Shown here: positions 27,396-53,764 of the stretch, piece by piece | Position numbering within the stretch: the stretch's first letter is position 1 | How the letters are laid out: each line of letters opens with the position of its first letter | NCBI GenBank assembly: GCA_016840685.1 | Contig: JAEORX010000003.1 | Coordinates: forward strand, 1 to 59,801 | Source: Candidatus Thorarchaeota archaeon | Lineage (GTDB): Archaea > Asgardarchaeota > Thorarchaeia > Thorarchaeales > Thorarchaeaceae | Reading direction: 5' to 3' | Length of the DNA: 59,801 bases | Notes under the pieces: model-generated | Database searches by the model: none | Seen by the model: only the letters and a program-made list of their open reading frames with translations | Told to the model about the DNA's origin: nothing | Translations under genes and position numbers: made by a program

Positions 27396-28991
27396 ATGAC
27401 GAAAGACACATTCACATTTCAGGAACTAAAGCGAACCAATCATCGGGAAATTAAGGAGATTCAGGATAAAAAGTTCAGGGCATTTATTCGGTATCAGGTC
27501 TGGCCAAATCATGCTTACTATCGAAAGCTGTTCAAGGATAACAACATTGATCCATTCAATATAACATGCATTGAGGACTGGGCGAAATACAAGATACCAT
27601 TAGTCAAGAAGATAGACTACAGGGACAATCTACAGCAGTTTGTACTAAATCCCACAGAGGTTGATGGCCAACAACGTGAATCTGCTGAAGCAATTGGAAC
27701 TCTAATGAAATATGCAAATGAGGCAGGTCACAAAGATCTTGCGAAATTCATTCGAAATAACGGAGCGAAAGTAAAGCTTAGCCTAGGGAAAGAAGGGGCA
27801 ATGGCTCGTTTAAAGGAAAGAGCGACATATCAATACTCCCCTCTCCAATTTTGGCTAAGCTCCGGGAGAGCCTCTGGATTGCCTTCGCCAGTTTTTCTAA
27901 CTCGTTATGATCATGATCTTCTGTACAAGAATTGTGTGAAAGTTGGTCAAATGGCCGTAGACCCATTTTTAAAAAGCGGATGGGAGTCCTCCAGTATGAA
28001 CCTCTTTCCCTATGCTCCTCATCTTGGTTGGCATGCAGTCAATTTGGGTCTCAGGCAGATGTCTAAGTTCTATGTTGCTACGAGTGCTGGTGGAGCAATT
28101 CCTAGCGAGAGGTTGGTGGAACTAGCTGGTGTATTCAAGGTAAACAGCTTCGCTGGAATGCCAAGCTATCTACGAAACAGGTTCTTTAGATCAATGAAAG
28201 AGGATCAGAATTACAAGGCGCAAGAGAGAAATGTCCTTCTACTCGCTGGTGAAAAAATCTACGAACCTGCTGTCGATGACATGGTCAACACATTGGTTGA
28301 GAAGGGTGCAAAGGAGGTTCGAGTTGTAGGAGGATATGCTTCATCTGAAAGTAAGATATCCTTTGCAGTCCAATGTGATAGACATGGTCCTTATCACAAT
28401 GTATCCCCATTGATGTTAGCTTTTGAACTCGTAAAGTTCAATGAAGATGGAACCTATGATTTCGTCGGTGATGATGAATCTGGTCATATGTGTCTGTTCC
28501 ATCTTGATGGTACAGGAACGGTCTTTGAGGGTTTCTTGCTTGGGGACGTCGCATCACATCAAGAGAAGGGCAAATGTCCCATCTGTGAATTTGATGGTCC
28601 TTTCTTCTGGGACATTGGTAGGACAAATGATGCTCAGGCTCAAATGGACATTATGGGCTTAGCCGAGAAGAAAATCAAAGGGGCTACAGTTAATCTCACA
28701 GCCTTGCGGGAGATGCTCCTTTCAATAAGTCAGGTCGAAGAGATTCAAATCGAGGTCGCAAAGGAAGACATGGCTGATCCGTACAGTATGGATATCTTGA
28801 ATCTCTATGTTGCTCCAAGAGGTCCGGTTTCGGGTGACTACAAATCTCTCATTCACGAGATACAAAAACTGACTAAGACAAACACAGAGGTCACACCTGG
28901 TGTGACAATCATTGGCTTTGAAGAGCTGGTTGAGAAAGCTGGAGGAATGAAGTTCATGGAGATTATTGATAACAGACCCAAGCCTTCATAG
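27396..28991 (+). CDS. AMP-binding/phenylacetate-CoA-ligase-like protein
   Basis: 531 residues. Overall layout follows the PaaK-type adenylate-forming family: an N-terminal VWPNHAYYRKLFKDNNIDPF segment, YSPLQFWLSSGRASGLPSPV at the place of the nucleotide loop, LLLAGEKIYEPAVDDM, VVGGYASSES and a C-terminal subdomain with MGLAEKKIKGATVNLTALRE. PaaK-like proteins convert an aryl or acyl acid plus CoA and ATP to acyl-CoA. The loop here is Gly/Ser-rich but lacks the canonical SSGTTGxP spelling (SSGRASGLP). Substrate unknown. GAGGTTG lies 7 bases before ATG. Confidence 0.8.
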   Translation: MTKDTFTFQELKRTNHREIKEIQDKKFRAFIRYQVWPNHAYYRKLFKDNNIDPFNITCIEDWAKYKIPLVKKIDYRDNLQQFVLNPTEVDGQQRESAEAIGTLMKYANEAGHKDLAKFIRNNGAKVKLSLGKEGAMARLKERATYQYSPLQFWLSSGRASGLPSPVFLTRYDHDLLYKNCVKVGQMAVDPFLKSGWESSSMNLFPYAPHLGWHAVNLGLRQMSKFYVATSAGGAIPSERLVELAGVFKVNSFAGMPSYLRNRFFRSMKEDQNYKAQERNVLLLAGEKIYEPAVDDMVNTLVEKGAKEVRVVGGYASSESKISFAVQCDRHGPYHNVSPLMLAFELVKFNEDGTYDFVGDDESGHMCLFHLDGTGTVFEGFLLGDVASHQEKGKCPICEFDGPFFWDIGRTNDAQAQMDIMGLAEKKIKGATVNLTALREMLLSISQVEEIQIEVAKEDMADPYSMDILNLYVAPRGPVSGDYKSLIHEIQKLTKTNTEVTPGVTIIGFEELVEKAGGMKFMEIIDNRPKPS

Positions 28992-31766: not shown

Positions 31767-32318
31767 TTGAAGCTAGTCGACCTGGCCAGGGAGTCAGTCA
31801 GGGTTCTGAAGGAGTGTGGTAGTGAGGGCATAAGGAGTGATATCCTGGCTGAACTATTAGACACTCCAAAGCGAAGAGTGTATGATATCATCGCTGTTCT
31901 AAAAGCGTTAGATCAAGTGAGTACAACACGGAAATTTGATGGTACCATCGTAAAATGGGTTGATAAAACCAAAGACTTTGTTTCCCGTGAATCCTATGAC
32001 ACTGTGAAAATGCAGCTTGATCAAGAGAGTACTGAGAGAAAGGATCTGCAAGTCCAAGTGGCTGAACTAAAGGAGCAGGTGCGAATATCAAAGATCAAAC
32101 TCCGTCGAGAAACAACAGCAGTTGAATCATCAGACAAAATGGAGTTTAATACTACTCAGCTCCGAGTTCGGGCGCTCTCAAGCAATGGCATCAAGAGTGT
32201 GAAGCACTCTGGAGTGGAAGTGCGAATTGAAACCCATGAGGCTGGCATGGTTGTTGATCCTACAGAAATCGAAGTTGATGAGAAGAAGGCACTAGTCACA
32301 AAGCTCCAACGAATCTAA
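31767..32318 (+). CDS. E2F/DP-like winged-helix protein with coiled coil
   Basis: 183 residues from TTG 31767 with GGGGTG 5 bases upstream. Residues 3-68 form a winged helix: the recognition helix reads DTPKRRVYDIIAVLKALDQV, matching the RRxYDI-x-NVL signature by which E2F and DP factors touch DNA, and the wing FDGTIVKWVDK matches the E2F NxIxW strand. A coiled coil follows (about residues 75-115, VKMQLDQESTERKDLQVQVA), as in E2F/DP dimers. The C-terminal 60 residues are beta-rich and unassigned. In eukaryotes these factors control cell-cycle genes; here only DNA binding and dimerisation are inferred. Confidence 0.8.
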   Translation: MKLVDLARESVRVLKECGSEGIRSDILAELLDTPKRRVYDIIAVLKALDQVSTTRKFDGTIVKWVDKTKDFVSRESYDTVKMQLDQESTERKDLQVQVAELKEQVRISKIKLRRETTAVESSDKMEFNTTQLRVRALSSNGIKSVKHSGVEVRIETHEAGMVVDPTEIEVDEKKALVTKLQRI

Positions 32319-32324
32319 GTAATT

Positions 32325-32714
32325 TTATTCTGCATATCGAATTATGACAAGACTTCCTCGTCTTACCTGTTTCAATCCATCGAGCTCTGATTCATCTGAT
32401 GTTACTTTTCCAATCACATTGACTTGGCTGAAGGTTCGTTTATCACTGAGATAGATGTCTAGTGAATCTCCTAGGGGCTGATAGGCTATGTCCGCTTTCT
32501 TAACCTCGTTCGTTGGCTTTGCATTGCCCTTGGAGATACCCAAAGTAATTTTCATCTCATCTTTCATTAAGGCTGTCCTTCCTTCAAAAGGAAGTCTGGA
32601 CTTGATCTCTTCTACAATGAGTGGGGCATAGATTCTATTTATGAAACCCTTGAGTACAAAGTCACCTTCGAAAACGAATTCAATCTGAAGATCGGTATCA
32701 CTCATGTCGTCCAT
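32325..32714 (-). CDS. cyclophilin-like fold protein (DUF369/PF04126 type)
   Basis: About 130 residues from ATG 32714; ATG 32705 is an alternative. The segment RLPFEGRTALMKDEMKITLG, then EVKKADIAYQPLGDSLDIYL and NVIGKVTSDESELDGLKQVR, follows the cyclophilin-like family typified by TM1367. These are small beta-barrels without proven prolyl isomerase activity. It is convergent with the E2F-like gene (6 bases apart) and divergent from the vWA gene, whose start is only about 40 bases away. Confidence 0.75.
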   Translation of the reverse strand: MDDMSDTDLQIEFVFEGDFVLKGFINRIYAPLIVEEIKSRLPFEGRTALMKDEMKITLGISKGNAKPTNEVKKADIAYQPLGDSLDIYLSDKRTFSQVNVIGKVTSDESELDGLKQVRRGSLVIIRYAE

Positions 32715-32753
32715 ATTTTTACATCCATAAAGGCTCCTAAAATTTCCTATGCT

Positions 32754-33935
32754 TTGCAGCAAAGCCTTAATTGGGCACGAACAAAGTTTGACAAGGAGAG
32801 GATTCGGCTGGCCTCCACCAAGTTAGACGTTGCATTTGTAGTTGATACAACTGGTTCAATGAAGGATGATATTCAGGCTGTTAAAGACAGTCTATTCGAG
32901 ATTGTGGACCATGTCACACGACGAACTGAGGGGTTGGAGATTCGTTTTGGCATAGTGTCTTATCGCGATCATCCACCTCAGGACAGAACATATGTCACCA
33001 AGGTTTTTGATTTCAGTGAGAAGATAAAACAAGTCCACAAACAGATTTCAGATTTAAGACCCTCTGAAGGAGGAGACACGCCAGAGGCTGTCGCAGATGG
33101 TCTCTTCGATGCTAGGACAAGACTCTCTTGGGAACGCGATGCATACAAAGTGCTTCTTCTTGTGGGGGATGCACCTCCTCATGGTAAACGATACAATAGC
33201 ATAGGTGATGATTACTTTCCAGAGGGGTGTCCAAAGGGACATGACCCAATACAGGAGGTTAGACAGCTTCGAAGTGATTTTGGAAGTACTGTTTTCATTT
33301 TTGTCTGTGGCTGCAACCCTCTTGTTGAGGAGTCCTTCAGGAAAATCGCATCATCTGTCGAAGATGGAAAATACTATTCTCTTCTTGAGGCGCATCAACT
33401 ACCAGAAGCAATATTGCAAATCCTCGAAGGTGTAAGTGATCTTATAGAAGCTGACAGAAAGGTCCTTGCTTTCTACGAACTAAACGATGGTACCTTTGAT
33501 ATGGGTGAAGCAGCCTCAGCCCTGTCCATGGAGCTACGAGCACTTAAGACATCACTTTCCCGGCTTCTTGAGCTTGGTAGGATAGCACGGTGGCCAAAAG
33601 GAAGACCTCTATCAGCTTCACAAATGGGGCTCACTGTTGAACTTGGAGAGGTCCCTAACAATATAGTGGCTGGAAAAGCATTCAACTACTCTATTAGGGT
33701 GAAAAATCCAAGCTCAACTATAGTCAGCATACGTGTCATAGCTTCTTTGATTACCTCTGAAGGTGTTTCTGAAGTGACCAATGAGCTTCATGATATTGGT
33801 TCAAGAGCTGACAAGAAACTAGAGTTAAAACTAGTCCCGATGACAGATACCAAGGGAAAGGCGAGCTTGAGAATAGAGGTGTTTTATGGCTCGCGTTCAA
33901 TTGCCACTGAGATATACACTACTCGTATCTATTGA
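32754..33935 (+). CDS. vWA domain protein with winged-helix and Ig-like C-terminal parts
   Basis: 393 residues from TTG 32754, the only start before the fold begins; no ribosome site is seen. Residues 20-220 are a von Willebrand A domain with the MIDAS motif DTTGSM (Asp31, Thr33, Ser35) and GGDTPEAVADGL, which supplies the further Thr. Residues about 235-285 look like a winged helix (ALSMELRALKTSLSRLLELG). The last ~110 residues are a beta-sandwich resembling Ig-like domains (NYSIRVKNPSSTIVSIRVIA). It is the first gene of a set that overlaps the next by 50 bases. Likely a metal-dependent protein-binding scaffold. Confidence 0.82.
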   Translation: MQQSLNWARTKFDKERIRLASTKLDVAFVVDTTGSMKDDIQAVKDSLFEIVDHVTRRTEGLEIRFGIVSYRDHPPQDRTYVTKVFDFSEKIKQVHKQISDLRPSEGGDTPEAVADGLFDARTRLSWERDAYKVLLLVGDAPPHGKRYNSIGDDYFPEGCPKGHDPIQEVRQLRSDFGSTVFIFVCGCNPLVEESFRKIASSVEDGKYYSLLEAHQLPEAILQILEGVSDLIEADRKVLAFYELNDGTFDMGEAASALSMELRALKTSLSRLLELGRIARWPKGRPLSASQMGLTVELGEVPNNIVAGKAFNYSIRVKNPSSTIVSIRVIASLITSEGVSEVTNELHDIGSRADKKLELKLVPMTDTKGKASLRIEVFYGSRSIATEIYTTRIY

Positions 33936-35109
33936 TGGAGGACTTCTATTGATTCTTCGGGCAAAACAAGGAAGAAATCAACAGGGTCTATGTTTTGTTC
34001 CATCAGAGGTATTTGACTCAATCATTAAAGTATGTGAACTACAAACTGAATCCAAATCTCTTCTTGTTGACATTAGGTGTTCTGACAAAGTTCCCGAGGG
34101 GGCTATCATTCTTGATTCTCGAATTTATCAGATTCTTGCTTGCGATGATGAAGAAGAAATTTCTGTGATTGGTAAAAACGAGGAGATTCCGACGTGTATC
34201 GAACTTCATCTCGGAGTTGTTTCAAAACGCAGTGTTAGGAATGACCAGCTTGCCCAAGCCATTTCAAAAAGGATTGATGATTTCAAAGATTACTTTGAAG
34301 GCTTGATATTTAGGCAGGGACAGAGAATCAACATAGATGATTTGGGGATTAGTTTTGAACTAAGGTCTTTGAGTCCGATAAGTTCTGTTTCGGGCTCAGC
34401 AAGAATTCATTGGAAAAAACTCCTCAAAATACATCTCGATGTAATTGAGTCCAAAGCAAGTAACTTCTATTTTATAGTCGAAGTGGCTGCAGCTACACAG
34501 ATTGCGGATGTTAAGGCGTTTGGGGATGATGGCGGGAGTTATCATATCACACGTCATCAGGCTATCCTAGAATCATTGGATTCAATTGAGAAACATTTTG
34601 ATGTCCAGAGTAGCAATGCATGGTTTTCTGGAATTCTGTTCTCAGATGAAGTGTGTCCCTACATCACCTATGATTCACAAACCGGTGAAGAAACTGAGAT
34701 CACCCCTCTGTACTCGCCATCGCTTATGAAAGCATTTAGAAATTGGCTCGGTCAGTCTGTTAATGAGCATAAGAACAAACCATCGAACATTGGAGCTGCA
34801 TTGAGATATGCATCTGATATGGTACAACTTCTGAATGAGAAGAATGGACTACCTAGCATTATCATCCTATTTTCGAGTGGTATATTTTCAACCGGAAAAA
34901 ATCCAGTAAAGGTGGCACAAATGGTTCTTAGCGGTCTACCAGTCAAAATTCTTTGTATTTCAGTGGGTGAGGATTCCACAACAGACATTATGGAAGCAAT
35001 TGCTAAACATACCGATGGAACGATGATCCATTTGAATAGAACTGATAGAACGAGTCTAATTGTAGATACACTCAATATCATGACAGGACAGGGTGATGTT
35101 GATGGGTAA
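33886..35109 (+). CDS. double-psi-barrel plus degenerate vWA protein
   Basis: 407 residues. ATG 33886 has AGAGGTG 6 bases upstream, so the 50-base overlap with the previous gene is believable. The N-terminal ~100 residues (FVPSEVFDSIIKVCELQ, then PEGAIILDSRIYQILACDDE) resemble the Cdc48 N-terminal double-psi barrel. The C-terminal half follows a vWA fold (AALRYASDMVQLLNEKNGLP, then SIIILFSSGIFSTGKNPVKV), but the MIDAS strand reads VEVAAATQIADVKAFG with no DxSxS. Probably a non-metal vWA partner of the neighbouring vWA proteins. Next gene overlaps by 8 bases. Confidence 0.68.
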   Translation: MARVQLPLRYTLLVSIDGGLLLILRAKQGRNQQGLCFVPSEVFDSIIKVCELQTESKSLLVDIRCSDKVPEGAIILDSRIYQILACDDEEEISVIGKNEEIPTCIELHLGVVSKRSVRNDQLAQAISKRIDDFKDYFEGLIFRQGQRINIDDLGISFELRSLSPISSVSGSARIHWKKLLKIHLDVIESKASNFYFIVEVAAATQIADVKAFGDDGGSYHITRHQAILESLDSIEKHFDVQSSNAWFSGILFSDEVCPYITYDSQTGEETEITPLYSPSLMKAFRNWLGQSVNEHKNKPSNIGAALRYASDMVQLLNEKNGLPSIIILFSSGIFSTGKNPVKVAQMVLSGLPVKILCISVGEDSTTDIMEAIAKHTDGTMIHLNRTDRTSLIVDTLNIMTGQGDVDG

Positions 35110-36238
35110 TGATATTGATACTCACCTTCAAGCACTCTATCAGAGTGGAAAAATTACCAGTTACATACACACGAGGTTGCCAACAGGCTCCCTAAAAACC
35201 GGGTGGGTTGAACAGGGACTTCTATCAAAAGGTACAAGGGGCAAATTACGTGACAAGGGGAATCAAGAATCCCTCGTTATTCCTGCCGATAGATTCACCA
35301 GACTTGCGAGAGACCGGGAGGAATGGGAAGGTGCGGCTATTGTTATTATTGGTTCAAAGGGACTTGCTACAAGTAAGTTCATTGCGATGGTTTTCGACCA
35401 AGCTGATTCTCAGTCTTTAGTTGCGTTCCAGACTCAGGGGGCTTCCCCAAATGAGATAATCACAATCTTACTTCAGAATGCTCTCGGAATTAAGAAACCG
35501 TTTCATTTCGAAGAACCCAATCTTGATTATATCGAACAACTAAGAATGGATTCAGCTGAAGGATTGGTGGGGGAAATGACAGCATTGTCTCTCCCCACAA
35601 ATTATGATAAAATCTCAAATTGGATTAAGGAGGTGTTGCTTAATCCATCATCTGAAAGTTATGAGATACAACATGGTAGTACCAATAGGATTCCAAAGTT
35701 CGCGGCTCTTGTCACGCGTTGGCTTGCAGGACTAGAACTCTTCAAAAGGACTTCCAATAGAATTGCAGCTCTCCTCTTTTTGGGTTCTACTTCATTGGAT
35801 GCTTGTTTCTGGGATGAACCACAGAGAAAAGCCGTTTATGTGACATTTTTGCAAAAAGATTTGATGTCACTGTCTGAAAAGTATCTCACAGCATTATGGC
35901 TAGTACCTGGTGAGAGTCTTACAAAGCCTCAACGCCATCGAGAGGTTACCGTAGGACCTCCGAAAGTAGCAGCTTCAAATGAGAAAATAGCCCCTCCAAA
36001 GAAACAGGATCTTGTTACCATTACAGATATTGAGTCAGTGCTAATAACTCTGACAAAACGAGTTGATTCACTTGAATCTATTTTGAATTCACTAAACACA
36101 GATTCTGATGTGGTCAGCGGAGACCGTGGAACAATGGACGTATTGCAGACTCGATTGGCAGAAAATATAGATAGAATTGAATCGATGGCAAAACGGTTGA
36201 TTGAGCTCGAGAGAAGGTTATCAAAAATACGATCATGA
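35102..36238 (+). CDS. hypothetical protein with C-terminal coiled coil
   Basis: 378 residues from ATG 35102, overlapping the previous stop and preceded by AGGGTGAT. No known domain is recognised in residues 1-280, which mix strands and helices (AAIVIIGSKGLATSKFIAMV). A Pro/Lys-rich linker (TVGPPKVAASNEKIAPPKKQ) leads to a coiled coil at about 300-378 (ESVLITLTKRVDSLESILNS). Translational coupling ties it to the vWA genes upstream. It may be a bridging subunit of their complex. Confidence 0.65.
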   Translation: MGNDIDTHLQALYQSGKITSYIHTRLPTGSLKTGWVEQGLLSKGTRGKLRDKGNQESLVIPADRFTRLARDREEWEGAAIVIIGSKGLATSKFIAMVFDQADSQSLVAFQTQGASPNEIITILLQNALGIKKPFHFEEPNLDYIEQLRMDSAEGLVGEMTALSLPTNYDKISNWIKEVLLNPSSESYEIQHGSTNRIPKFAALVTRWLAGLELFKRTSNRIAALLFLGSTSLDACFWDEPQRKAVYVTFLQKDLMSLSEKYLTALWLVPGESLTKPQRHREVTVGPPKVAASNEKIAPPKKQDLVTITDIESVLITLTKRVDSLESILNSLNTDSDVVSGDRGTMDVLQTRLAENIDRIESMAKRLIELERRLSKIRS

Positions 36239-36256
36239 GATGGATGTGTTTCATGA

Positions 36257-36490
36257 ATGAAAGGTGGGAACAAATTTACACGGGAAATTAAAGATCTGGA
36301 AAAGAAAATCGTAAGCCTCGAGCAGAGTATCATTACTAAAGATGATTCTTCGTTCGTATCATCTCTGCTAACAAAAATGAACGCTGTTCAAGCATTGATT
36401 GACCAAATCGAGATCGAACTCGACAAATTAGAAATGAGAGTATCAGCAATAGAGCACATGGACTTTAGATTTAGGACAGGTGGTCAGTAG
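36257..36490 (+). CDS. small coiled-coil protein
   Basis: 77 residues, almost entirely coiled coil (REIKDLEKKIVSLEQSIITK and IDQIEIELDKLEMRVSAIEH). It follows the larger coiled-coil gene by 18 bases on the same strand and could pair with it. No clear ribosome site. Its end overlaps the convergent 885-residue gene by 20 bases. Confidence 0.55.
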   Translation: MKGGNKFTREIKDLEKKIVSLEQSIITKDDSSFVSSLLTKMNAVQALIDQIEIELDKLEMRVSAIEHMDFRFRTGGQ

Positions 36491-39128
36491 AACCTTTCAT
36501 CACACTGTCTATTAGGTTCATTAAATACCCCTCAAAAACTGGTCCGGAAAAGACCTCTATTGGTAGAACCTTGGTATTCAATCCTTTTAACAATCTCAGG
36601 TTACCCTTCATGTTTCCATTATCTCCTAGAGTGAGAATATCCAATCGATACCTATCATGTTCAGCGATTGCTCTTAGAAATGAGAGATGTTCCTCATCAT
36701 ATACACCAACACTGCTACCCAGAACAATGGCTATTGTTGGTCTGTCTTCACCAAAATCTTCCAGATACTCCGCAATTGAACGATAAACAGATGCCATATT
36801 CTCGTGGCTGTCTAAATCTTCAACAGTGTCTAAAATCGAATAAATCAACGAGATCAAGACCTCTTCAGACCGTAGGTCTTCAAAGAATTCGATGTATGGT
36901 TGAACCTCTTTCCCTCGTTGAATCGAGAACTTGTCAGACCTCTCTCCAAAGGTTACTAAAGCAAGTCGTCCCTCAGTCTGATTATATAACAATTCATTGA
37001 TTAGCAAAAGTGAAGATAAAGCTGCAATTTGTGATCGAGATGTATTCTTTCGAAGTCCATTGAGAAACGTTTGGAGTTCTGGAACCCTATCACTTAGGCT
37101 TTTAAGACGGTTTCTAATAGCTGTCGGAGTTTTCAAGATCACATCTTTGGTTCTCATCTTCTGTCCCTTTGAGATACAGAGAATTATGTTGAGTTCATTG
37201 AAGGCTTGTTCAGGTCTGAAATACGATTTTTCCCTCGTAAGTCTACCTACCTGTCCTGAGAGAAGATGTGGTCGGGAGCTTTCCAAGCATAGAATCACTG
37301 CACTATCCTCTGTTCCAACACTCAAGTGAGTATCTAAGCCTACGAGAACACCATCCACTGACTGTTGTATCTCCTTTTCGTGTAAATGCATGAATGAGGC
37401 TAGTTCCGCATTGTCATGATCTTGCGGTGTATTGTATGATAGAACCGCTTCTGACAAGTCTATGATTTCATCTTCGTACTTTACGAGATTGACCACGGAT
37501 GAAGTACGAAAACCAAAGAGTGATGCATCCTTTTCGGAAACCACTAGAGACCGTTCACCACATCTTGCATGTTGCTTTAATTGACCCGTAGCCCATCTTC
37601 CGGTACTTGAGTCAAGAGCAAGGACAAAATCTCCTGATTCAACTTCAAGTGCGGTCATGTCCTGTTCGCACATGAAGAAAATCCCTGGATCGGATTTTGC
37701 TATCTCAACACCAAAATGCAGTGCGGAGAGTATATCTTTAGGGTTCTTTACTTGTAGGCAGGTAAGTAGAGCTTGGTTAAATCGAGTCAGATGTGCTGGG
37801 GAACCAAAGATTGGTCCATCTAGTTTTGCATTAGCTCGAACAAGAGTGTCCAATAGAACTCCATCGCGTTCTATAAGACTGTCTGTAAATGCTTGTCTCC
37901 ATCCTGAGATCATAACGGATCCGTTCTTCTCTAGTAAGACTGCCAGGCATGTTGCTTTTGGAGATGTGGGGCTCTTTAATGTCAGGACTGCGCTATCAAG
38001 ATGGACTTTTCCCCCATAGCTATCAATCATATAGTCAATTGATGAAATACCTAGTATTTTTCGGGCATCCAAGAGTTGGAGAATCCTTGCAAGCTCATTC
38101 ATGGCCGCCTTTCCAAGGCTCTCCTCAGCCATCACTGAAGTGCTGTTCTCCTCATAAGCGAAAAAGCCTGGTCGCGGCTGAAGTAGGGAGAGCATATTTC
38201 CACCGAGTATTCTTTGAACTTCCTCTGGTTCAGCAGCTAGATTTCTACTCAGGATATAGCTAAAGACTTCAGATATACTGTCACCAAACTGCGTTTCAGG
38301 GTATGCTGAACCAAACATTAATCGTCTTGACCAATTAGCATCACTTTGTTTTCTCCTCATATGGCGAATCAGGGTTGATAAAGAAGAAATAGTCGCTCCT
38401 GATGTCAAGACTTTACTTCCTGGGACGTCAAGGAGTTTTGTAATTTCCTTGCCCCACTGTTTGTGGTTCTTTGCACTAAGTACAAGATTAGGTGTTTTTA
38501 GTCCAGCCTGTTTGAGAAGAACAAGCCACTCAAGAAGAGGATCTAATTCTGATGAGGGCTCAAGTTCAATGAATACTGGTTTCCCACCTTTTATGTAATC
38601 CAATAGGTCCTTCCTGTTCGAGCCCTTTAAGATGTGGTGAAGATCCTCTGCTCTCAGTATGCACCCCCATCCTTGCTCAGTTCGACGGTCTAATCTCATG
38701 TCCTGAAGATGGTATAACCTCGGGCTATAAGGGGGAACGGTTGACCATCTGAAAATAGATTCAGCATTTGCCTTTTGTTGAAGCGCTGGGAGTTTTGTTC
38801 CCCCTAAGCTAATGAGAGGTTTGACTACAAGATAATCAGCAACCCAGCTTGTCTGGGAAGATGATGCAGTTCCGTGATAAAACTCGCTCAGCAGTCGAGG
38901 TTTCTTAAGGTAGTCATAAACTCTCCTAGGCAGATATCTAAAGGCTCCTGGATATCTCATGGCGAAATCATATAGTTGATGCTCAACCTGGCCATAATAC
39001 GAAAATACTCGTTCTGGGTCAAATGCTCTAATGCTTTTTCCAGCACGCACAATACCCAAGTAGTTGGAGCTGTCAACGACAATAAAGCGATGAATCTCAT
39101 TAGCCTCAATGTCCTCAACAACTATCAT
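36471..39128 (-). CDS. metal-site-dead amidohydrolase fused to double-psi-barrel and vWA-like domains
   Basis: 885 residues. Residues 1-450 follow the amidohydrolase protein encoded divergently at 39276: EVFSYILSRNLAAEPEEVQR plus ILGGNMLSLLQ here against DVILYLLSRDFPGTLADAQR plus VLAGNALSLVQ there. Every metal position is lost: VDSSNYLG in place of VDAHHHMG, VLSAKNHK for ILAHCGM, FGSAYPE for FGTDFSF. Residues about 490-570 resemble a Cdc48-N-like double-psi barrel (DMTALEVESGDFVLALDS). Residues about 600-880 follow a vWA order (GVLVGLDTHLSVGTED, LALVTFGERSDK, PTIAIVLGSSVGVYDEEH) without a full MIDAS. A pseudo-enzyme scaffold is likely. Confidence 0.72.
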   Translation of the reverse strand: MIVVEDIEANEIHRFIVVDSSNYLGIVRAGKSIRAFDPERVFSYYGQVEHQLYDFAMRYPGAFRYLPRRVYDYLKKPRLLSEFYHGTASSSQTSWVADYLVVKPLISLGGTKLPALQQKANAESIFRWSTVPPYSPRLYHLQDMRLDRRTEQGWGCILRAEDLHHILKGSNRKDLLDYIKGGKPVFIELEPSSELDPLLEWLVLLKQAGLKTPNLVLSAKNHKQWGKEITKLLDVPGSKVLTSGATISSLSTLIRHMRRKQSDANWSRRLMFGSAYPETQFGDSISEVFSYILSRNLAAEPEEVQRILGGNMLSLLQPRPGFFAYEENSTSVMAEESLGKAAMNELARILQLLDARKILGISSIDYMIDSYGGKVHLDSAVLTLKSPTSPKATCLAVLLEKNGSVMISGWRQAFTDSLIERDGVLLDTLVRANAKLDGPIFGSPAHLTRFNQALLTCLQVKNPKDILSALHFGVEIAKSDPGIFFMCEQDMTALEVESGDFVLALDSSTGRWATGQLKQHARCGERSLVVSEKDASLFGFRTSSVVNLVKYEDEIIDLSEAVLSYNTPQDHDNAELASFMHLHEKEIQQSVDGVLVGLDTHLSVGTEDSAVILCLESSRPHLLSGQVGRLTREKSYFRPEQAFNELNIILCISKGQKMRTKDVILKTPTAIRNRLKSLSDRVPELQTFLNGLRKNTSRSQIAALSSLLLINELLYNQTEGRLALVTFGERSDKFSIQRGKEVQPYIEFFEDLRSEEVLISLIYSILDTVEDLDSHENMASVYRSIAEYLEDFGEDRPTIAIVLGSSVGVYDEEHLSFLRAIAEHDRYRLDILTLGDNGNMKGNLRLLKGLNTKVLPIEVFSGPVFEGYLMNLIDSVMKGSTDHLS

Positions 39129-39275
39129 TTCTTAGGTCTCCAGATTTGTCTATCAGGAGGTCTGCAGAAGTCGATATATGCCTAATGCTGATTTCTATGG
39201 AGCTAAGCGATGGACAACGACCAATGATTTATCACATATTTAGAATTACCATCAATTTGGAGGATATGATCGACC

Positions 39276-40784
39276 ATGCTCGTTATTCGAGCCGTTGAAG
39301 ACCTACCAAATCGAGGTATTAAGAAGGGAGATGAGTTTCAACTCTATATTGTGGATGCTCATCATCACATGGGCCGAGAGAAAGGACACAAAAATACGCC
39401 TTCTGGAGCCTACGATTTTTATGCGCAGCTTTGGTTTGAGATGCAAAAGAAGTCTGAAACTTTACTTAATGAAGAACACCTTTTGTTTGAACCCATTGGT
39501 CTGGCTGCACCTAAGCTGGCAACGAAACTCTTTCAGAGTAGACCTAATTGGGCTCGAGTAGATCATGGTTGGCTTGTTGACAGAACAATCGTTTTTCCAT
39601 ATACTGATGACTATTCTATTCCATCTTCCAAGGGGGAACCATCTTTTAAGGTGTCTAATGACAAAATATGGTCTTGGACAACCAGAGCACCCCACTCGTC
39701 TAGGTTGATTGGTTTTGCACGTGTCAATCCTCTAGACGGTTCTCTAGATGGTAATCTTATCGCAGTAAAGGAGTTGGATCGAAGTGTGTTCTCACTCGGC
39801 TTGAGAGGATTAAAACTACATCCTTTAGCTCAGCTCTTCGTGGATTCAATCGACAAGAACGAACCACGAGAGGTAGTGAAACGAGCAGGTGAGCTTGGAA
39901 TCCCAGTAATTTTTGATACTCGAAATATCCGAACAGTGGTAAGAATTAAACGACTTGTTGACTCGATGCGGAACGATCCCGATTGTGGTGCTGCCATCAA
40001 GGGACTACGAGTCATCTTGGCTCATTGTGGAATGACTCCGGGCGACTCTCGACTTTATGAGGCTCTGAAAGATCCACTAATATTTGCAGAAACATCCACG
40101 CTTCATGACAAAGATGTTCCTGTTTTATTTGAATCAGCTTATGAACGACTTGGCGCATCTCCGATTAACTGGTCTGAGAAGATACTCTTTGGTACTGATT
40201 TTAGTTTTCTATCAGTTCAAGCTATGGATGTGATTTTGTATCTATTATCGCGAGATTTTCCTGGAACACTGGCTGATGCTCAAAGAGTACTTGCTGGTAA
40301 TGCTCTCTCACTTGTTCAAAGCCCATATAGGACCACAATGGGCTCCTCAGAACCACCAATCGAACTTATCTGCAAGGATGAGTCCTTCACTATTCAACAT
40401 GACCTAGAAGATCAAATTATAAAATTACTAACTGGTGGAATATGGGATCTGGGATCACTTGATTTCATGATTCCTCCTCTTGGAACTTGGCCAGAACCAA
40501 GCTGCATCTCCAAGGGTGGGTTCAATGGTGTGGATATGGAATCTTATGTCCTCTCACTGAAATCAAAGGAGAAGTCCAAGGAGATGCATTTCTGGATTCG
40601 ACGACGTCCTGATAGCCTTCTCAGCTGCACAGTGTTATCAACACAAGGAATGACTCGCCTCGAAACTCTAGAGAATGCTTCTCAAAAACTCGGACAGGTC
40701 TTGCTAAAATCAATATCAGATCATTCTCAGACTTATCAATCATCACGTGAGATGGAGTCAGAAGTACTGAAGCTACTATCATGA
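39276..40784 (+). CDS. amidohydrolase-fold protein with extra C-terminal domain
   Basis: 502 residues from ATG 39276 (GGAGG 12 bases upstream). The TIM-barrel amidohydrolase_2 landmarks are VDAHHHMGR (His29-x-His31), GLKLHPL (Lys180, His182), VILAHCG (His250) and LFGTDFS (Asp308). The usual middle His after the fifth strand reads PVIFDT, with Asp214, so the metal site may be modified. Residues about 345-502 form an extra domain shared with the 885-residue paralogue (DLGSLDFMIPPLG; YVLSLKSKEK). Probable hydrolase; substrate unknown. Divergent from the paralogue and directly upstream of the intact vWA gene. Confidence 0.8.
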   Translation: MLVIRAVEDLPNRGIKKGDEFQLYIVDAHHHMGREKGHKNTPSGAYDFYAQLWFEMQKKSETLLNEEHLLFEPIGLAAPKLATKLFQSRPNWARVDHGWLVDRTIVFPYTDDYSIPSSKGEPSFKVSNDKIWSWTTRAPHSSRLIGFARVNPLDGSLDGNLIAVKELDRSVFSLGLRGLKLHPLAQLFVDSIDKNEPREVVKRAGELGIPVIFDTRNIRTVVRIKRLVDSMRNDPDCGAAIKGLRVILAHCGMTPGDSRLYEALKDPLIFAETSTLHDKDVPVLFESAYERLGASPINWSEKILFGTDFSFLSVQAMDVILYLLSRDFPGTLADAQRVLAGNALSLVQSPYRTTMGSSEPPIELICKDESFTIQHDLEDQIIKLLTGGIWDLGSLDFMIPPLGTWPEPSCISKGGFNGVDMESYVLSLKSKEKSKEMHFWIRRRPDSLLSCTVLSTQGMTRLETLENASQKLGQVLLKSISDHSQTYQSSREMESEVLKLLS

Positions 40785-40800
40785 CGCTGACTTACAATTC

Positions 40801-40807
40801 TTTATAA
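40801..40807 (+). promoter_or_regulatory. candidate TATA box before DPBB-vWA gene
   Basis: TTTATAA lies between the amidohydrolase stop (40784) and the DPBB-vWA gene. An archaeal TATA box places the transcript start some 25 bases on, near 40829, which is just after the GTG 40821 and just before the AGGAGGT at 40840-40846. This makes the GTG start less certain. Confidence 0.35.
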
Positions 40808-40820
40808 CCTCAAAACCGGA

Positions 40821-42143
40821 GTGTCTCCTAAAAGGACTCAGGAGGTAAATGCCATCACCAAGAAATTAACCTTGGAGATAATTGACGGTGGAGACCTGAG
40901 GGGCTTCGCTAACATTAATCCCAAAACAGCAAAGAAACTGGATGCTGATATTGGTTCAATCCTGATATTTGAGGATCCTCAGAGTAGCTTCTGGGGTGCG
41001 GCTGAAATTAGAAAGAGCACTGAAGTTGCAGAGAATACGATCGTCATCGACACATTGGTTCTTGAAGCGTCATTACTTATGGAAGGCGATGAAGTAGATG
41101 TCACTCTCTATGATGAAGATATGCTCGCTCTAGAATACGTTGAGTTTGGTATCAAGCCATTGACTGAAGATGCCAATACAGAAGACCTTGTGACAAGAGC
41201 CGCTGAGCGTGTTAAGTCACTCGAGAATATCATCGGTGGTCGACTAGTATATCCTGGGATGTCTTTCAACTGGCCTGAACTTGATGTCAAAGTGGAGATT
41301 ATCAACACAAAACCTGATCTTGCTGGAAAAAAGTTCGCCAAGTTGGCATTTGAGGCACTTCGTGAGCGTACTGGTTATCAGTTCAAAACTGTTGGTGTCG
41401 CAGCCCCCTTCAACGCTGTACTTTGCATAGACACAAGTGGCTCCATGAAGACCACTGACGTACCTGTGCAAGATATCGCCCATGCTCGTGAGGGTCTCAA
41501 GGACCTAGCTGGAGATAGTCCTGAGGTCCAAGCATTTCTTAATCGGTTTGAAGAAGGTAAGAATGTAAGTAGGGCGGAAGCTGCTGCAATGGCTGTTCTC
41601 CTCTATCTAGCCGAAAAAGTAGGTCGTGGTTATGGCGAAAAGGTGGGAGTGATTACATTTGAAAAAGAAGTAAGTGAGATGACTTTCCTTAACTCCGACA
41701 CCGGCGAGGTTCAACCATTTGTAGAATGTACTGGTAGGGAAAAAGCACTTGGTCTTCAAATCATCAGCACGCATGTCGTAGACAAGGTGGAGGAGGGAGG
41801 TACTCTTACAGACATGGGTACTGCCTTGGCTAAAGCACATCAGATTATGGAGGAGTTTGGTGATCCTGATAAACCAACGATGCTCATCATGCTGACCGAT
41901 GGGATGACGACTTCCGGACCTCCCCCACTCAAAGTTCTAAAAGAACGATTCACTGATAGAAGCAAACTTGTGATATACTCCATTGGTCTGGGAGAACGTA
42001 GTGAGATAGACGAGGAGCTTATGCTCGCAATTGCTCAATATGGCAACGGGAGTTATCGACATGTTGACAACATGCGAGATTTACTAGAGTGGTATGGCAA
42101 ACTTGCTGGTGAATTTGCAGTTGTCATCCGTGGTTCTGAATGA
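40821..42143 (+). CDS. Cdc48-N-like double-psi-barrel plus vWA protein
   Basis: 440 residues from GTG 40821. Residues about 14-105 match the Cdc48/VCP N-terminal double-psi barrel: GFANINPKTAKKLDADIGSI against GIARIDPxxxxKLGLxxGDx, then TIVIDTLVLEASLLMEGDEV. Residues 195-430 are a vWA domain with complete MIDAS CIDTSGSM (Asp204, Ser206, Ser208), GGTLTDMGTAL and MLTDGMTTSG. The true start is unsure: AGGAGGT at 40840-40846 is followed by ATG 40849, which is out of frame; one missing base there would make it the start. Cdc48-N barrels normally recruit adaptors to AAA+ ATPases. Confidence 0.82.
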   Translation: MSPKRTQEVNAITKKLTLEIIDGGDLRGFANINPKTAKKLDADIGSILIFEDPQSSFWGAAEIRKSTEVAENTIVIDTLVLEASLLMEGDEVDVTLYDEDMLALEYVEFGIKPLTEDANTEDLVTRAAERVKSLENIIGGRLVYPGMSFNWPELDVKVEIINTKPDLAGKKFAKLAFEALRERTGYQFKTVGVAAPFNAVLCIDTSGSMKTTDVPVQDIAHAREGLKDLAGDSPEVQAFLNRFEEGKNVSRAEAAAMAVLLYLAEKVGRGYGEKVGVITFEKEVSEMTFLNSDTGEVQPFVECTGREKALGLQIISTHVVDKVEEGGTLTDMGTALAKAHQIMEEFGDPDKPTMLIMLTDGMTTSGPPPLKVLKERFTDRSKLVIYSIGLGERSEIDEELMLAIAQYGNGSYRHVDNMRDLLEWYGKLAGEFAVVIRGSE

Positions 42144-42148
42144 GATAA

Positions 42149-43294
42149 TTAATCACGAGGTTCAAGAGCTTGAGTTAGACCCTTCAGAGTTTCCAGATCC
42201 ATTTCCTGAATCTGATCCTCTGGAATCCCTTCAAGCATCACTTCGGGAATACTAATCAGGAGCTCGGCCTTTTCTTCCCCAAACTTATCGATGAACTCTT
42301 GTAGTCTTGCGTCGACTTCTTCTTCTTCTTCAACTGCTTCTACTTCAACTTCAGGTTCGCTTTCAGCAGTAGATGAAAGCAGAGCCTCTAATTCCTCAAC
42401 ACTGAGGGTAGAAAGAGTTTCATCGCCCACTTCTTTTCTGACCTCTGAAGGCAGTCTTTCAATCAACTCGTCCTGTGCAGTTGCTTTCACCTTCTTTCGC
42501 ACTTTCTTTACCTTTCTAACCTTGACAGCCTTCTTCTTTGGTTTCTCTGAAGCTAGAGACACTTTCAACTTTTGGACAAGTTCTCTTGCAGAGGATGGTG
42601 TTAACCTTCTGAGATCCTCTGGTGGAAGTGTTTTTCGTAATTCTTCGGGCAACTCGCTAAGGATTGCTTCCACCTCGTCAGAAACTCCACCTGCTTTAGC
42701 TGCATCAACCCGTGCGGCTGCATCTCTAGAAAGCAGAATGGGAGCGCTTTCAAGTTCTTCAGCAAGTGATGTTATGTCAATCTCAATGTCAAATTTCTGA
42801 CTCCGCCAGTTCAAAAATCGATCAATTGCAGAGGGTTTCATTTTAAGGCTAATAAGGAATCGATTGATTTCCTCGTCAGTCATATCGGGGAAATCCCCGA
42901 CAAGTTTCTCCACAGCATCATCAGATATCCGCGCCCAAACTGGGCCATTTAGTAGCTTTGAGAGTCCTGCTGCACAATGTGACCTGACCCAGGTGTTGCT
43001 GTCCTTTAGTCCCTTTAATAGCTCTGGAACAGTTCTTGGTTGATGGTAAAATGCTAATGCTTGAGCGGCAGCAATTCGTACATCTGGTACTTCATCAGAG
43101 AGGGCCTTGACGATGTCGTTTACAACTACGGGGTCTGCCAAATCTATTGAAGCTATCAGTGCCCGTTCTCTTACAATGTCCGAAGAATCAGAGAACGCTT
43201 TGATCAGGGCATGCCGTTCTGTTTTGTCCTCTCTGGCAAGTCGTCCAACCTCATCTGTTTCGAATTCCAACAAAAGACTCCTTGTCTTTGCCAA
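42149..43294 (-). CDS. HEAT-repeat protein with Lys-rich and acidic linkers
   Basis: 381 residues from TTG 43294 with GGAGGAG upstream. Residues about 20-130 are HEAT repeats (ALIASIDLADPVVVNDIVKA, DEVPDVRIAAAQALAFYHQP, DSNTWVRSHCAAGLSKLLNG). Then come helical pairs with ELPEELRKTLPPEDLRRLTP, a very basic stretch (KPKKKAVKVRKVKKVRKKVK), an acidic stretch (EVEVEAVEEEEEVDARL) and a helical tail. It is convergent with the DPBB-vWA gene with a 5-base gap. Probably a scaffold, possibly nucleic-acid-binding through the basic part. Confidence 0.72.
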   Translation of the reverse strand: MAKTRSLLLEFETDEVGRLAREDKTERHALIKAFSDSSDIVRERALIASIDLADPVVVNDIVKALSDEVPDVRIAAAQALAFYHQPRTVPELLKGLKDSNTWVRSHCAAGLSKLLNGPVWARISDDAVEKLVGDFPDMTDEEINRFLISLKMKPSAIDRFLNWRSQKFDIEIDITSLAEELESAPILLSRDAAARVDAAKAGGVSDEVEAILSELPEELRKTLPPEDLRRLTPSSARELVQKLKVSLASEKPKKKAVKVRKVKKVRKKVKATAQDELIERLPSEVRKEVGDETLSTLSVEELEALLSSTAESEPEVEVEAVEEEEEVDARLQEFIDKFGEEKAELLISIPEVMLEGIPEDQIQEMDLETLKGLTQALEPRD

Positions 43295-43479: not shown

Positions 43480-44292
43480 ATGACTGCTGATAAACAAACA
43501 CTGTGGCTAAGACTCACTCTGTTCATGATAGCAATGTTTTTGATTGTGTTGATGTCACCGGTCGTTGTCAATCTTTTTCAAGACAATGAAGAAGTCTTAG
43601 CTTTGGCTGCTACTCTTGTCTTCTTTCTTACATTCGTCCTAATGTATACAGTCACTTGGTTCTTTGTAAGATGGGATGGAGGAGAATCGATTGAAGAATT
43701 AGGAGTTAAAATCGATGATAGATTTAGCCCTCACCTAATGATTGGTGCAACAGCAGGAACTATTGGTGCAATATTGGTCGTGGCAATCGCCTTCTTTTTT
43801 GGCGGTCAGCTTCGTCCGATTGACCAAATAACTGCTGACTTGATAGTAAATGAAATAATCATTACAGCACCAACAGCCTTCTTTGAAGAGTTGGTTCATC
43901 GTGGCTACATCTTAACCAGATTGGAGAATCTGGCTGGAAAACCATTCGCCATAGTTTTCAGTTCACTCTTCTTCTCACTTCTTCATTTCAGCTGGTGGCC
44001 TCGTACTGCATTTGATTTGCCTTTGATAGCCATTTTCACATTCAATATGTTTCTTGGTGGTGTTGTCTTATCGCTCAGCTACTATCTATCTGGCCGAAGA
44101 CTCTGGGTGCCTATTTCATTCCACTTTATGTGGAACATGATTGCCTACATAATGTTTCCACCATTCCCCAGAGAAGCAGTGACACAACCTGGAGTTTTTC
44201 AGATTGAATGGGGAATCACAACAATTGTGGGCTTTCTATTTGGCCTCTCAATACTTTGGAGTCTTCTTGCTTCAGAGAAAAAGAGGGATTAG
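43480..44292 (+). CDS. CPBP-family intramembrane metalloprotease
   Basis: 270 residues with about eight hydrophobic segments. The family's catalytic motifs are present: FFEELVHRGYIL (EExxxR), FSSLFFSLLHFSW (FxxxH) and SFHFMWNM (HxxxN-like). CPBP/Abi proteins include CAAX prenyl-end proteases and bacteriocin-immunity proteins; the substrate here is unknown. It acts in the membrane. Ends at a hairpin shared with the convergent NfeD gene. Confidence 0.88.
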   Translation: MTADKQTLWLRLTLFMIAMFLIVLMSPVVVNLFQDNEEVLALAATLVFFLTFVLMYTVTWFFVRWDGGESIEELGVKIDDRFSPHLMIGATAGTIGAILVVAIAFFFGGQLRPIDQITADLIVNEIIITAPTAFFEELVHRGYILTRLENLAGKPFAIVFSSLFFSLLHFSWWPRTAFDLPLIAIFTFNMFLGGVVLSLSYYLSGRRLWVPISFHFMWNMIAYIMFPPFPREAVTQPGVFQIEWGITTIVGFLFGLSILWSLLASEKKRD

Positions 44293-44320
44293 AAGGGAAC
44301 GGTTTCATCCGAACCCTTCT
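44291..44320. terminator. inverted repeat between convergent genes
   Basis: AGAAGGG-AA-CGG and CCG-AA-CCCTTCT pair across a TTTCAT loop with an internal AA/AA mismatch. It begins at the stop codon of the CPBP gene and ends before the stop of the NfeD gene, the normal place for a bidirectional terminator. T-runs are absent, so the call is moderate. Confidence 0.45.
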
Positions 44321-44333
44321 ACTGGCTGAAAAT

Positions 44334-45026
44334 CTATTGGTCCATGCCTGAAATATCATCAGGTCTTCTCACATACATCGTGATACCAGTGATGTGATCG
44401 ATAACAACCTGTTCTCCTGCCTTGATTGGTGGACCAGAGGTCCTCGCCCACCATATCTCAGCACCTGTCTTAACCTTCCCCTTTGGATTAAGATCAGTGA
44501 CTGCATGGATATCCGCGTACTTGAATTGAGAATAGGTAGGCCATTTGTCGTAATCCCTAAGGAAAGCGAAATACAGCATCATCAGACAGAATACTGTGCC
44601 TGCCATGATATACACAGTTAGTTGCCTTGTTGGATCGATTAGAACTGAGAGGAAAATAGCTACCCCGTAGAGCGGGAAAAGCTTCAGCGACACCTTCGCA
44701 TCAATAAAGCCTCCTTCTACGAAGCTGCTTCCACCTGTGAACATGGTGAACATAAGATACAATACGCCAAAGATTATCAGAAGCATCCAGTCGTCAAACG
44801 AGAAGTCTGAAATCCACACCTGAAACACGAAGAGTATGATTATTATCGGTACAACAACTTGCGCCATTGCTTTACCAGTTGCTGGTTCAAGAGTGATAAC
44901 CAACAATGTGATTAGAACACCAAAAATCATCAATCCATAAAATGGATTGATGAGGAGAAGCGGCATGACCATACTCAGCGCTGAGAACATTATCATGACA
45001 ACAACGATTTTTATCCATGCATCCAT
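44334..45026 (-). CDS. NfeD-like membrane protein
   Basis: 230 residues from ATG 45026 with GGAGGAAAC 7 bases upstream. Five or so hydrophobic segments fill residues 5-160. The C-terminal 70 residues (DIHAVTDLNPKGKVKTGAEI, then AGEQVVIDHITGITMYVRRP) form the OB-fold typical of NfeD. NfeD genes pair with stomatin/SPFH genes and this one follows an SPFH gene by 29 bases, confirming the pairing. It lacks the ClpP-like protease domain, so it is the short NfeD type. Confidence 0.87.
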   Translation of the reverse strand: MDAWIKIVVVMIMFSALSMVMPLLLINPFYGLMIFGVLITLLVITLEPATGKAMAQVVVPIIIILFVFQVWISDFSFDDWMLLIIFGVLYLMFTMFTGGSSFVEGGFIDAKVSLKLFPLYGVAIFLSVLIDPTRQLTVYIMAGTVFCLMMLYFAFLRDYDKWPTYSQFKYADIHAVTDLNPKGKVKTGAEIWWARTSGPPIKAGEQVVIDHITGITMYVRRPDDISGMDQ

Positions 45027-45055
45027 CTTGTTTCCTCCTACATCCAGAAAGAGAA

Positions 45056-45892
45056 CTAGTCTTCAGAAGCTCCCTTGTCCTTTGGTACTCTTAATCCCCC
45101 TGTGCCTGCCGAGAGAGCTACAGATGTTCCTGCAGCCATCCCAACTTCTGGAAGATTAGTCGGGATCATGATAATCAGGTTGGCATTCTTCGATATCTCC
45201 TGCATGATGTTCCATTGCCGGAGCATGAAACCCACACTTGACTCCTCATAGATTCGAGCCGCCTTCAACATGTTCTCCGAAGCCTCGAGTTCAGCTGTAG
45301 CTAGAGTGATTCTGGCTCTACGTTCTCTCTCAGCCTGCGCTTCTCGACTCATGGCATCCTGAAGTGCCGACGGAATGACGACATCTCGAATCTCGACACT
45401 TGTGACCTTAACACCCCAGTGCTCAGTCTTCTCGTCAATAAGTTCCTGAAGATGTCCAGCAATCTGATCACGTTCTGACAGCAGCTGGTCCAGAGTCACC
45501 TTACCTGTTGTTTCTCGTAGTGTTGTCTGGGCAGCAAGCTCCACAGCAACTGTGTATCTTTCAACACTGAGAATTGCTTTCTCAACATCAATGACCCGGA
45601 AATACATCACAGCATCGACGACAACTGGCACGTTGTCCTTTGTCAATGAACGTTCTGTTTTGAAGGCGTATGTAAGGAGTCTAAGTGAAACCTTCATTGC
45701 CACCTTGTCAAGAATGGGCGTGACCCAGATGACACCAGGACCTCTGATGTGTTTGAATTTACCCAGTCTAAGAACAGCAACGCGTTCCCACTCCTTGAGA
45801 ACCTTGATTCCGCTCGCTACAAACATAAGAACGAAGAATGCGAGCACGATGACTAGCATCATTACGAAATATGAATCTAACATGAATTGCAA
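45056..45892 (-). CDS. SPFH/stomatin-family protein (slipin)
   Basis: 278 residues, probably from TTG 45892 because GGAAGGAG is correctly spaced for it; ATG 45883 would be too far. One N-terminal membrane helix (residues about 8-30) precedes the SPFH domain: LKEWERVAVLRLGKFKHIRG, VPVVVDAVMYFRVIDVEKAI, TTLRETTGKVTLDQLLSERD, IRDVVIPSALQDAMSREAQA. C-terminal helices then end in a Gly-rich tail. Stomatins form membrane microdomain scaffolds. Partner of the NfeD protein. Confidence 0.92.
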   Translation of the reverse strand: MQFMLDSYFVMMLVIVLAFFVLMFVASGIKVLKEWERVAVLRLGKFKHIRGPGVIWVTPILDKVAMKVSLRLLTYAFKTERSLTKDNVPVVVDAVMYFRVIDVEKAILSVERYTVAVELAAQTTLRETTGKVTLDQLLSERDQIAGHLQELIDEKTEHWGVKVTSVEIRDVVIPSALQDAMSREAQAERERRARITLATAELEASENMLKAARIYEESSVGFMLRQWNIMQEISKNANLIIMIPTNLPEVGMAAGTSVALSAGTGGLRVPKDKGASED

Positions 45893-53017: not shown

Positions 53018-53027
53018 ATCTAAACAC

Positions 53028-53696: not shown

Positions 53697-53764
53697 AGGT
53701 CGAACCACTCTTTGAGAGTCTTTTCCAATGAATTGTTATTACCTTTGTTAGCTCAACAAAAGTG

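Follow-up and report, generated by a model that had tools for sequence, protein, structure and literature searches.

A three-gene Asgard module of a predicted carboxylate-amine ligase, an amidohydrolase and a barrel-vWA protein, with additions in Thorarchaeia

The window analysed here, 59,801 nucleotides of Candidatus Thorarchaeota archaeon (GCA_016840685.1, JAEORX010000003.1), is one whole contig (C14) of a 3.2 Mb genome that is 94% complete. Its positions 32754-43294 hold eight genes, lettered A to H, of which A-B-C-D run forward, E in reverse, F-G forward and H in reverse; a further gene, lettered L, lies on the minus strand at 49580-53041. Three of these genes, G, F and L, constitute the true core of a module that recurs across Asgard archaea, and A, B, C, D, E and H are added to that core in Thorarchaeia. 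The core combines a protein made of a Cdc48-N-like barrel and a von Willebrand factor A (vWA) domain (G), a metal-dependent amidohydrolase (F) and a protein of the GCS2/YbdK ligase family (L). The reading that we favour, with a probability of about 0.4, is that L and F form and cleave amide bonds reversibly, in a module that the barrel-vWA adaptor G organises and for which we infer both the chemistry and the substrate. All parts with an assigned domain belong to known folds or families; their combination is apparently undescribed.

A first-pass annotation, made from the letters alone, had proposed 32754-43294 as a multiprotein system of nine genes. The set is real, as its genes stay together across Thorarchaeia and the G/F/L core across Asgards; it comprises eight genes rather than nine, and the limits drawn around it enclose G and F and leave outside the third core gene, L, which had been overlooked.

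The core proteins and the fused pseudo-enzyme

G (40821-42143, plus strand, 440 amino acids) consists of a Cdc48-N-like double-psi barrel with a clam subdomain, followed by a vWA domain (Pfam VWA_2, 3e-10) with the motif CIDTSGSM and an intact metal ion-dependent adhesion site (MIDAS), whose residues D204, S206, S208, T330 and D360 are kept in 87-88 of 88 aligned rows. The secondary structure of its AlphaFold model (mean predicted local distance difference test, pLDDT, 82.6) displays the expected barrel pattern and the vWA fold. The barrel of the G relative at locus L180 matches CDC48_N (PF02359) at 3.8e-7, under the curated cut-off, and that of B gives a weak match to CDC48_2 (9e-4). In several lineages G carries up to three tandem barrels with a proline-rich linker between them; G ends at the vWA domain and has no AAA+ Pfam match. 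The barrel also exists as a separate gene product, a double-psi barrel protein devoid of vWA domain that adjoins G at L174:7806-8663 (family f27).

F (39276-40784, plus strand, 502 amino acids), which ends 36 nt upstream of G, is a metal-dependent amidohydrolase of the Amidohydro_2 family (PF04909, 9e-13, over cut-off), and its metal ligands H29, H31, H182, H250 and D308 are invariant in 48 of 48 rows. Both F and G have a counterpart in E (36471-39128, minus strand, 885 amino acids), which is composed of a dead amidohydrolase, a middle domain, a barrel and a MIDAS-less vWA domain. In hhalign comparisons, the N-terminal half of E matches F (3e-31) and its second half matches G over both the barrel (2e-20) and the vWA domain (9e-28); profile comparison further relates the middle domain of E to the C-terminal region of F (2e-9). 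The catalytic metal ligands are gone from E in 39 of 39 rows, the MIDAS is also lost, and the AlphaFold model is good (pLDDT 88.5). E is therefore a pseudo-F fused to a pseudo-G, with metal site and MIDAS both dead. A second inactivated copy is B (33886-35109, plus strand, 407 amino acids), a barrel and a vWA domain without MIDAS in 19 rows, matching G in hhalign over the barrel (2e-13) and the vWA domain (6e-22); it is fast-evolving and has been lost from several genera. These profile matches establish both B and E as genuine G paralogues.

E is found in 43 of the 47 genomes of the Thorarchaeia family (a 44th tallied genome matched only through G), and E and H persist even where F and G have been lost from the genome. 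Because Jordarchaeia carry the same pseudo-F/pseudo-G fusion, with the metal ligands absent and the MIDAS partly eroded, the E-type fusion is old and kept, and predates Thorarchaeia. F and G are fused in E and are neighbours in the same genomes; F is therefore predicted to bind G. Roadblock or gelsolin folds hidden in the C-terminal domain of F, in the middle domain of E or in C were also considered, and hhalign gave no match for them.

Most domain assignments of the first-pass annotation are borne out by these results. Its intact vWA protein (DTTGSM) is A and its intact barrel-vWA protein (CIDTSGSM) is G; its amidohydrolase is F and the metal-dead paralogue of it is the first half of E, while the MIDAS-less copies of the G architecture are B and the second half of E. 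The barrel and vWA folds are confirmed by profile matches and by the AlphaFold models of two proteins, G and the MIDAS-less E. It had treated the dead amidohydrolase and two MIDAS-less proteins as separate; the domains are there as described, and the dead amidohydrolase and one of the MIDAS-less proteins are both E.

L surfaced as a recurrent companion of F and G when the neighbourhoods of other Asgard families were read. The window copy (1153 amino acids) has a ligase domain of ~440 amino acids and, after it, immunoglobulin (Ig)-like beta repeats. It matches PF04107 at 1.8e-5 (over cut-off), the NCBIfam YbdK model at 2e-17 (under the cut-off of that model) and the YbdK structures 1r8g/1tt4 of the PDB at 2e-13, and the motifs GxExE, E-x-x-TPP, HxH and TIExR are invariant or nearly so in 16 rows. 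By family, L is a GCS2/YbdK-type ATP-dependent carboxylate-amine ligase of predicted activity. Across the family, the ligase domain is followed by Ig-like repeats or a separate Ig-like protein lies alongside. A 226-amino-acid protein encoded directly upstream of L (53028-53708, minus strand) is a possible module member, with a weak hhalign match (0.0016, 103 columns) to a Jordarchaeia protein in the same position. A divergent L (G019:C27:82763-84103, 3.7e-61) occurs in a Thorarchaeon that has E and H and lacks F and G.

Distribution and neighbourhoods across Asgard archaea

The profile of each protein was run against 228 Asgard genomes, whose families were numbered (f1, Thorarchaeia; f2, Lokiarchaeia; f4/f11, the Jordarchaeia/Freyarchaeota group). 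G is present in 129, F in 129 and L in 130 of the 228 genomes; all three occur together in 113, and 86 are without any of them, with Fisher p values for co-occurrence of 1e-36 to 4e-47, uncorrected for shared ancestry. All three genes are jointly absent from G024, G025, G027 and G035, Thorarchaeia genomes that are each at least 95% complete. About twelve Asgard families carry G, F and L together. The order F-L-G or G-Ig-L-F is found within ~1-8 kb in f4, f11, f18, f21, f23, f24, f26 and f27, which make up most of the other carrier families checked; in Thorarchaeia, F and G are adjacent with L 8-10 kb off, and in Lokiarchaeia L and F are mostly ~100 nt apart. A, E, F, G and H each recur in at least 17 of 20 Thorarchaeia neighbourhoods, far beyond chance. 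The matches listed from a collection scan with G comprise 80 loci; 79 carry labels of Asgard lineages, and one comes from an unclassified archaeon that groups with Thorarchaeia. A mobile element, phage or plasmid origin was rejected, as tblastn found no match of G in plasmid or phage collections and the locus is syntenic across Thorarchaeia.

Around the core, neighbours differ between lineages. In Lokiarchaeia (loci L112-L148), G is a triple-barrel-vWA protein encoded in a conserved operon with YjeF-like, gelsolin-like, roadblock (PF03259), AbrB-like, coiled-coil, actin-related (PF00022, 4e-43) and 860-amino-acid proteins; the labels YjeF-like, AbrB-like and TPR/CHAT-like (the 860-amino-acid protein) were assigned by eye. 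In many of these loci, a methyltransferase-like gene and a DEAD-box gene come after the operon. The same gelsolin-like family adjoins F-G in Jordarchaeia, and in L175 (f18) gelsolin-like, roadblock, G, L and F genes all stand at one locus. Three species of family f29 have a G paralogue that ends in a ubiquitin domain (PF00240, up to 8e-8; over cut-off in two). At L180:8924-15262, this ubiquitin-fused paralogue sits beside ubiquitin-like, E1, E2 and JAB genes. Across the three species (L180, L181 and L186), E2 and JAB are linked to it every time, whereas E1 is linked in two, the contig stretch of the third ending first. Among the Pfam matches of the window cluster there is no ubiquitin-like, E1, E2 or JAB gene.

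Proposed function and competing explanations

In the favoured reading, L would spend ATP to link an amine with a carboxylate, probably that of glutamate or of a glutamyl residue, and F would perform the metal-dependent cleavage of such an amide bond or of its product, which would render the reaction reversible. G would act as a non-catalytic adaptor holding F, and probably also L and a client, in a physical complex, through peptide binding by its barrel and Mg-dependent binding by its vWA domain. In Thorarchaeia, the duplicated, fused and inactivated F-G copy E and the inactivated G copy B may be regulatory or scaffold subunits beside A, C, D and H. The proposal is backed by the common distribution of G, F and L and their physical linkage, by their joint absence from the four near-complete Thorarchaeia genomes, by the fusion of dead F and G copies in E, by the conservation of the catalytic residues in both L and F, and by the ubiquitin-fused G paralogue of f29. 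As client, a protein is likelier than a free metabolite, given the pseudo-enzymes, the Ig repeats and the links to ubiquitin parts and to roadblock, gelsolin-like and actin-related proteins.

Several points weigh against the proposal. Shared ancestry accounts for part of the co-occurrence of G, F and L, and in Lokiarchaeia the L-F pair and G are separated by distances that start at ~9 kb and reach hundreds of kb or beyond. To our knowledge, the GCS2-family enzymes characterised so far all act on small molecules, and L and F could therefore be a metabolic pair; decarboxylases also occur within the Amidohydro_2 family. A small-molecule pathway is thus a serious rival, even if we hold it to be rather unlikely: L would make a gamma-glutamyl (or similar) amide, F would hydrolyse or decarboxylate the product, in the manner of other pairs of a GCS-type ligase and an amidase, and G would be a maturation or metal-handling accessory. 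Such a pathway would fit with L being nearest to YbdK/glutamate-cysteine ligase, with the ACMSD-like ligand set of F and with L-F being the tightest pair (a gap of ~100 nt in many families); however, the Ig repeats of L, the fusion E, the tandem barrels of G and the ubiquitin-linked paralogue would be unusual for metabolism, and no further pathway enzyme is consistently linked. The adaptor-organised amide module may, on the other hand, be taken one step further, into a ubiquitin-independent system of reversible protein tagging in Asgards in which L would attach a tag through an amide bond, F would take it off and G, with the inactive E and B, would select the clients, one lineage having wired the same adaptor family into the ubiquitin system by fusion; in this full form, we regard the idea as unlikely. 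The suggestion of the first-pass annotation that the set marks substrates gains support from the ATP-dependent ligase in the core and from the ubiquitin-fused paralogue beside E1, E2 and JAB genes.

Its companion suggestion, delivery of substrates to an AAA+ ATPase (of Cdc48 or MoxR type) whose gene lies elsewhere, is left without direct support, since none of the neighbourhoods examined has a linked AAA+ gene, and we deem it very unlikely. The observation behind it was sound: a Cdc48-N-like barrel does sit on a vWA protein with no adjoining AAA+ gene, and MoxR and Cdc48-N matches do lie on other contigs. The genome has five PF07726 (MoxR-type) matches, on contigs C51, C159, C171 and C197 and none on C14, and two Cdc48-N proteins, neither of them on C14. 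Delivery to such an ATPase would be in keeping with the Cdc48-N-like barrel, with p97-N among the top structural matches, with the two Cdc48-N proteins and several MoxR-type ATPases of the genome and with the fusion of one G paralogue to ubiquitin, but the neighbours listed or scanned at ~100 loci include no recognised AAA+ gene. Moreover, Cdc48 and MoxR are present in most archaea, and the module is not. In comparison with the N domains of Cdc48/p97/VAT/NSF, G shares the double-psi barrel with its clam subdomain and, within its family, the weak CDC48_N and CDC48_2 matches, but it has a vWA domain in place of the AAA+ domains and no ATPase adjacent. Similarly, vWA-MoxR systems use MIDAS vWA proteins as adaptor subunits, and A and G have vWA domains with an intact MIDAS, but the module has no MoxR neighbour and its linked ATP-using enzyme is a GCS2 ligase.

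Foldseek searches of the PDB raised a different comparison. DEPDC5 ranks first for G (9o5e, 2.4e-11) and occupies ranks 1-5 for E (best 4e-11), in both cases ahead of p97 and NSF. According to a review, the DEPDC5 N-terminal domain (NTD) is NSF/Sec18-like and its SABA domain Sec23-like (PMC8534245). In DEPDC5/Iml1, an NSF/Cdc48-N-type barrel is followed by a vWA-like domain, the same folds in the same order as in G; by contrast, G keeps an intact MIDAS, stops after the vWA domain without DEP, SHEN or C-terminal (CTD) domains, and is tied to a ligase and an amidohydrolase. On a reading built on this likeness, G would be the archaeal kin of the NTD-SABA unit that DEPDC5/Iml1 contributes to GATOR1, and the module would be an assembly for small-GTPase or nutrient signalling and not for tagging. 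The Foldseek ranks and the roadblock protein beside the Lokiarchaeia G speak for it, but the p97 matches are almost as strong, so that the rank may reflect two common folds, and the TM-scores are low with a large root-mean-square deviation over the aligned length. Nor is the sequence relation significant: Pfam IML1 had no match over cut-off in 119 Asgard genomes, hhalign gave an E of 0.078, and between 9 and 433 of 2000 shuffles, depending on the profile, scored as high. A PDB search with the human DEPDC5 N-terminal query matched over the full length, and the alignments shown contain one substitution. As direct proof of kinship, Pfam IML1, the PDB profile search, hhalign and the shuffle test were all insufficient. 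The models thus show a shared architecture of G and DEPDC5, with kinship unproven, and the signalling assembly appears distinctly unlikely to us.

Lastly, the module may be a scaffold linked to membrane or cytoskeleton, organising actin- and gelsolin-like partners in Lokiarchaeia or an SPFH/NfeD platform in Thorarchaeia and Jordarchaeia. The Lokiarchaeia operon with its gelsolin-like, roadblock and actin-related proteins, the Pro-rich linkers between barrels, and the SPFH genes found next to E in Jordarchaeia and, in Thorarchaeia, close to H would all suit such a role. However, these partners vary by lineage while L and F stay constant, and Asgards encode many such proteins; a scaffold of this kind is, in our view, highly improbable.

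L has the family profile and the active-site motifs of YbdK/GCS2 ligases but differs from them in being fused to Ig-like repeats, or standing beside a separate Ig-like protein, and in its ties to a vWA adaptor and an amidohydrolase. Asgard ubiquitin operons likewise couple amide formation to metal-dependent hydrolysis, and the f29 paralogue of G sits in one; L nevertheless belongs to another family than E1 and E2, and the window cluster is devoid of ubiquitin parts. As in pupylation, the amide bond would be made by a ligase that uses ATP and has a fold of the broad GS/GCS class; in comparison with Pup, PafA and Dop, L lies in the YbdK branch and the hydrolase F is of another fold. Membership in the vWA-MoxR, AAA+ unfoldase, GATOR1, ubiquitin-operon or defence systems fails in each case on a defining feature; for anti-phage defence, PADLOC models matched only weakly, to coiled coils and HEAT repeats, which is noise. 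No description of this gene set was found in the open-access papers searched, and one may exist elsewhere; we know of no described system with this composition. Asgard archaea are the nearest known relatives of the eukaryotic host lineage. If the favoured reading is true, the module would be a new way of marking or switching proteins, kept across a dozen Asgard families, and its ubiquitin, roadblock, gelsolin-like and actin-related links, together with the DEPDC5 likeness, make it directly testable how the adaptor and nutrient-signalling proteins of eukaryotes arose.

Accessory genes and surroundings in the window

The remaining genes of the cluster are A, C, D and H. A (32754-33935, plus strand, 393 amino acids) has a vWA domain (Pfam VWA_4, 8e-13; VWA, 1e-11) with an intact, conserved MIDAS (DTTGSM), followed by an Ig-like C-terminal domain that matches the Ig repeats of L (1e-4); its inclusion in the vWA family of G, B and E is unsupported (hhalign E 0.0065). 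C (35102-36238, plus strand, 378 amino acids) is made of an N-terminal domain without assigned family and a C-terminal coiled coil; it has no Pfam match over cut-off and no hhalign match to the other module families, the best being 0.0025, to a Jordarchaeia coiled coil. D (36257-36490, plus strand, 77 amino acids) is a small coiled-coil protein whose Pfam matches are to coiled coils only; 4 of 20 Thorarchaeia loci have it, and in L050 it is joined to C as a single fused protein. As both C and D are missing from many relatives, they were rejected as general parts of the module and are accessory. H (42149-43294, minus strand, 381 amino acids) has HEAT repeats (HEAT_2, 4e-13) and a charged helical C-terminal half, and is found in 19 of 20 Thorarchaeia loci. 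The two coiled-coil proteins and the HEAT protein had been recognised as such in the earlier annotation, and the overlaps that it recorded (33886/33935 and 35102/35109) exist; with start codons as called, A and B overlap by 50 nt and B and C by 8 nt, and since many B homologues are shorter, the choice of start codon may explain part of the A/B overlap.

Directly after the cluster, at 43480-45892, lie genes for an Rce1-like membrane protease, NfeD and an SPFH (band 7) protein, kept in most Thorarchaeia loci; in Jordarchaeia (L055, L057), an SPFH gene adjoins the E homologue. On the other side, a cyclophilin-like (PF04126) protein (32325-32762), divergent from gene A, and a winged-helix protein matching the E2F/DP DNA-binding family (31767-32318; PF02319, 2.9e-7, over cut-off) are each present in 19 of 20 Thorarchaeia loci. 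Further away, 27396-28991 encodes a 531-amino-acid protein with ~75% identity across Thorarchaeia and no Pfam match, and 16040-18070 a 676-amino-acid fusion of acyl-CoA dehydrogenase, SCP2 and MaoC, separate homologues of which are found near G in the Jordarchaeia loci L053, L058 and L061.

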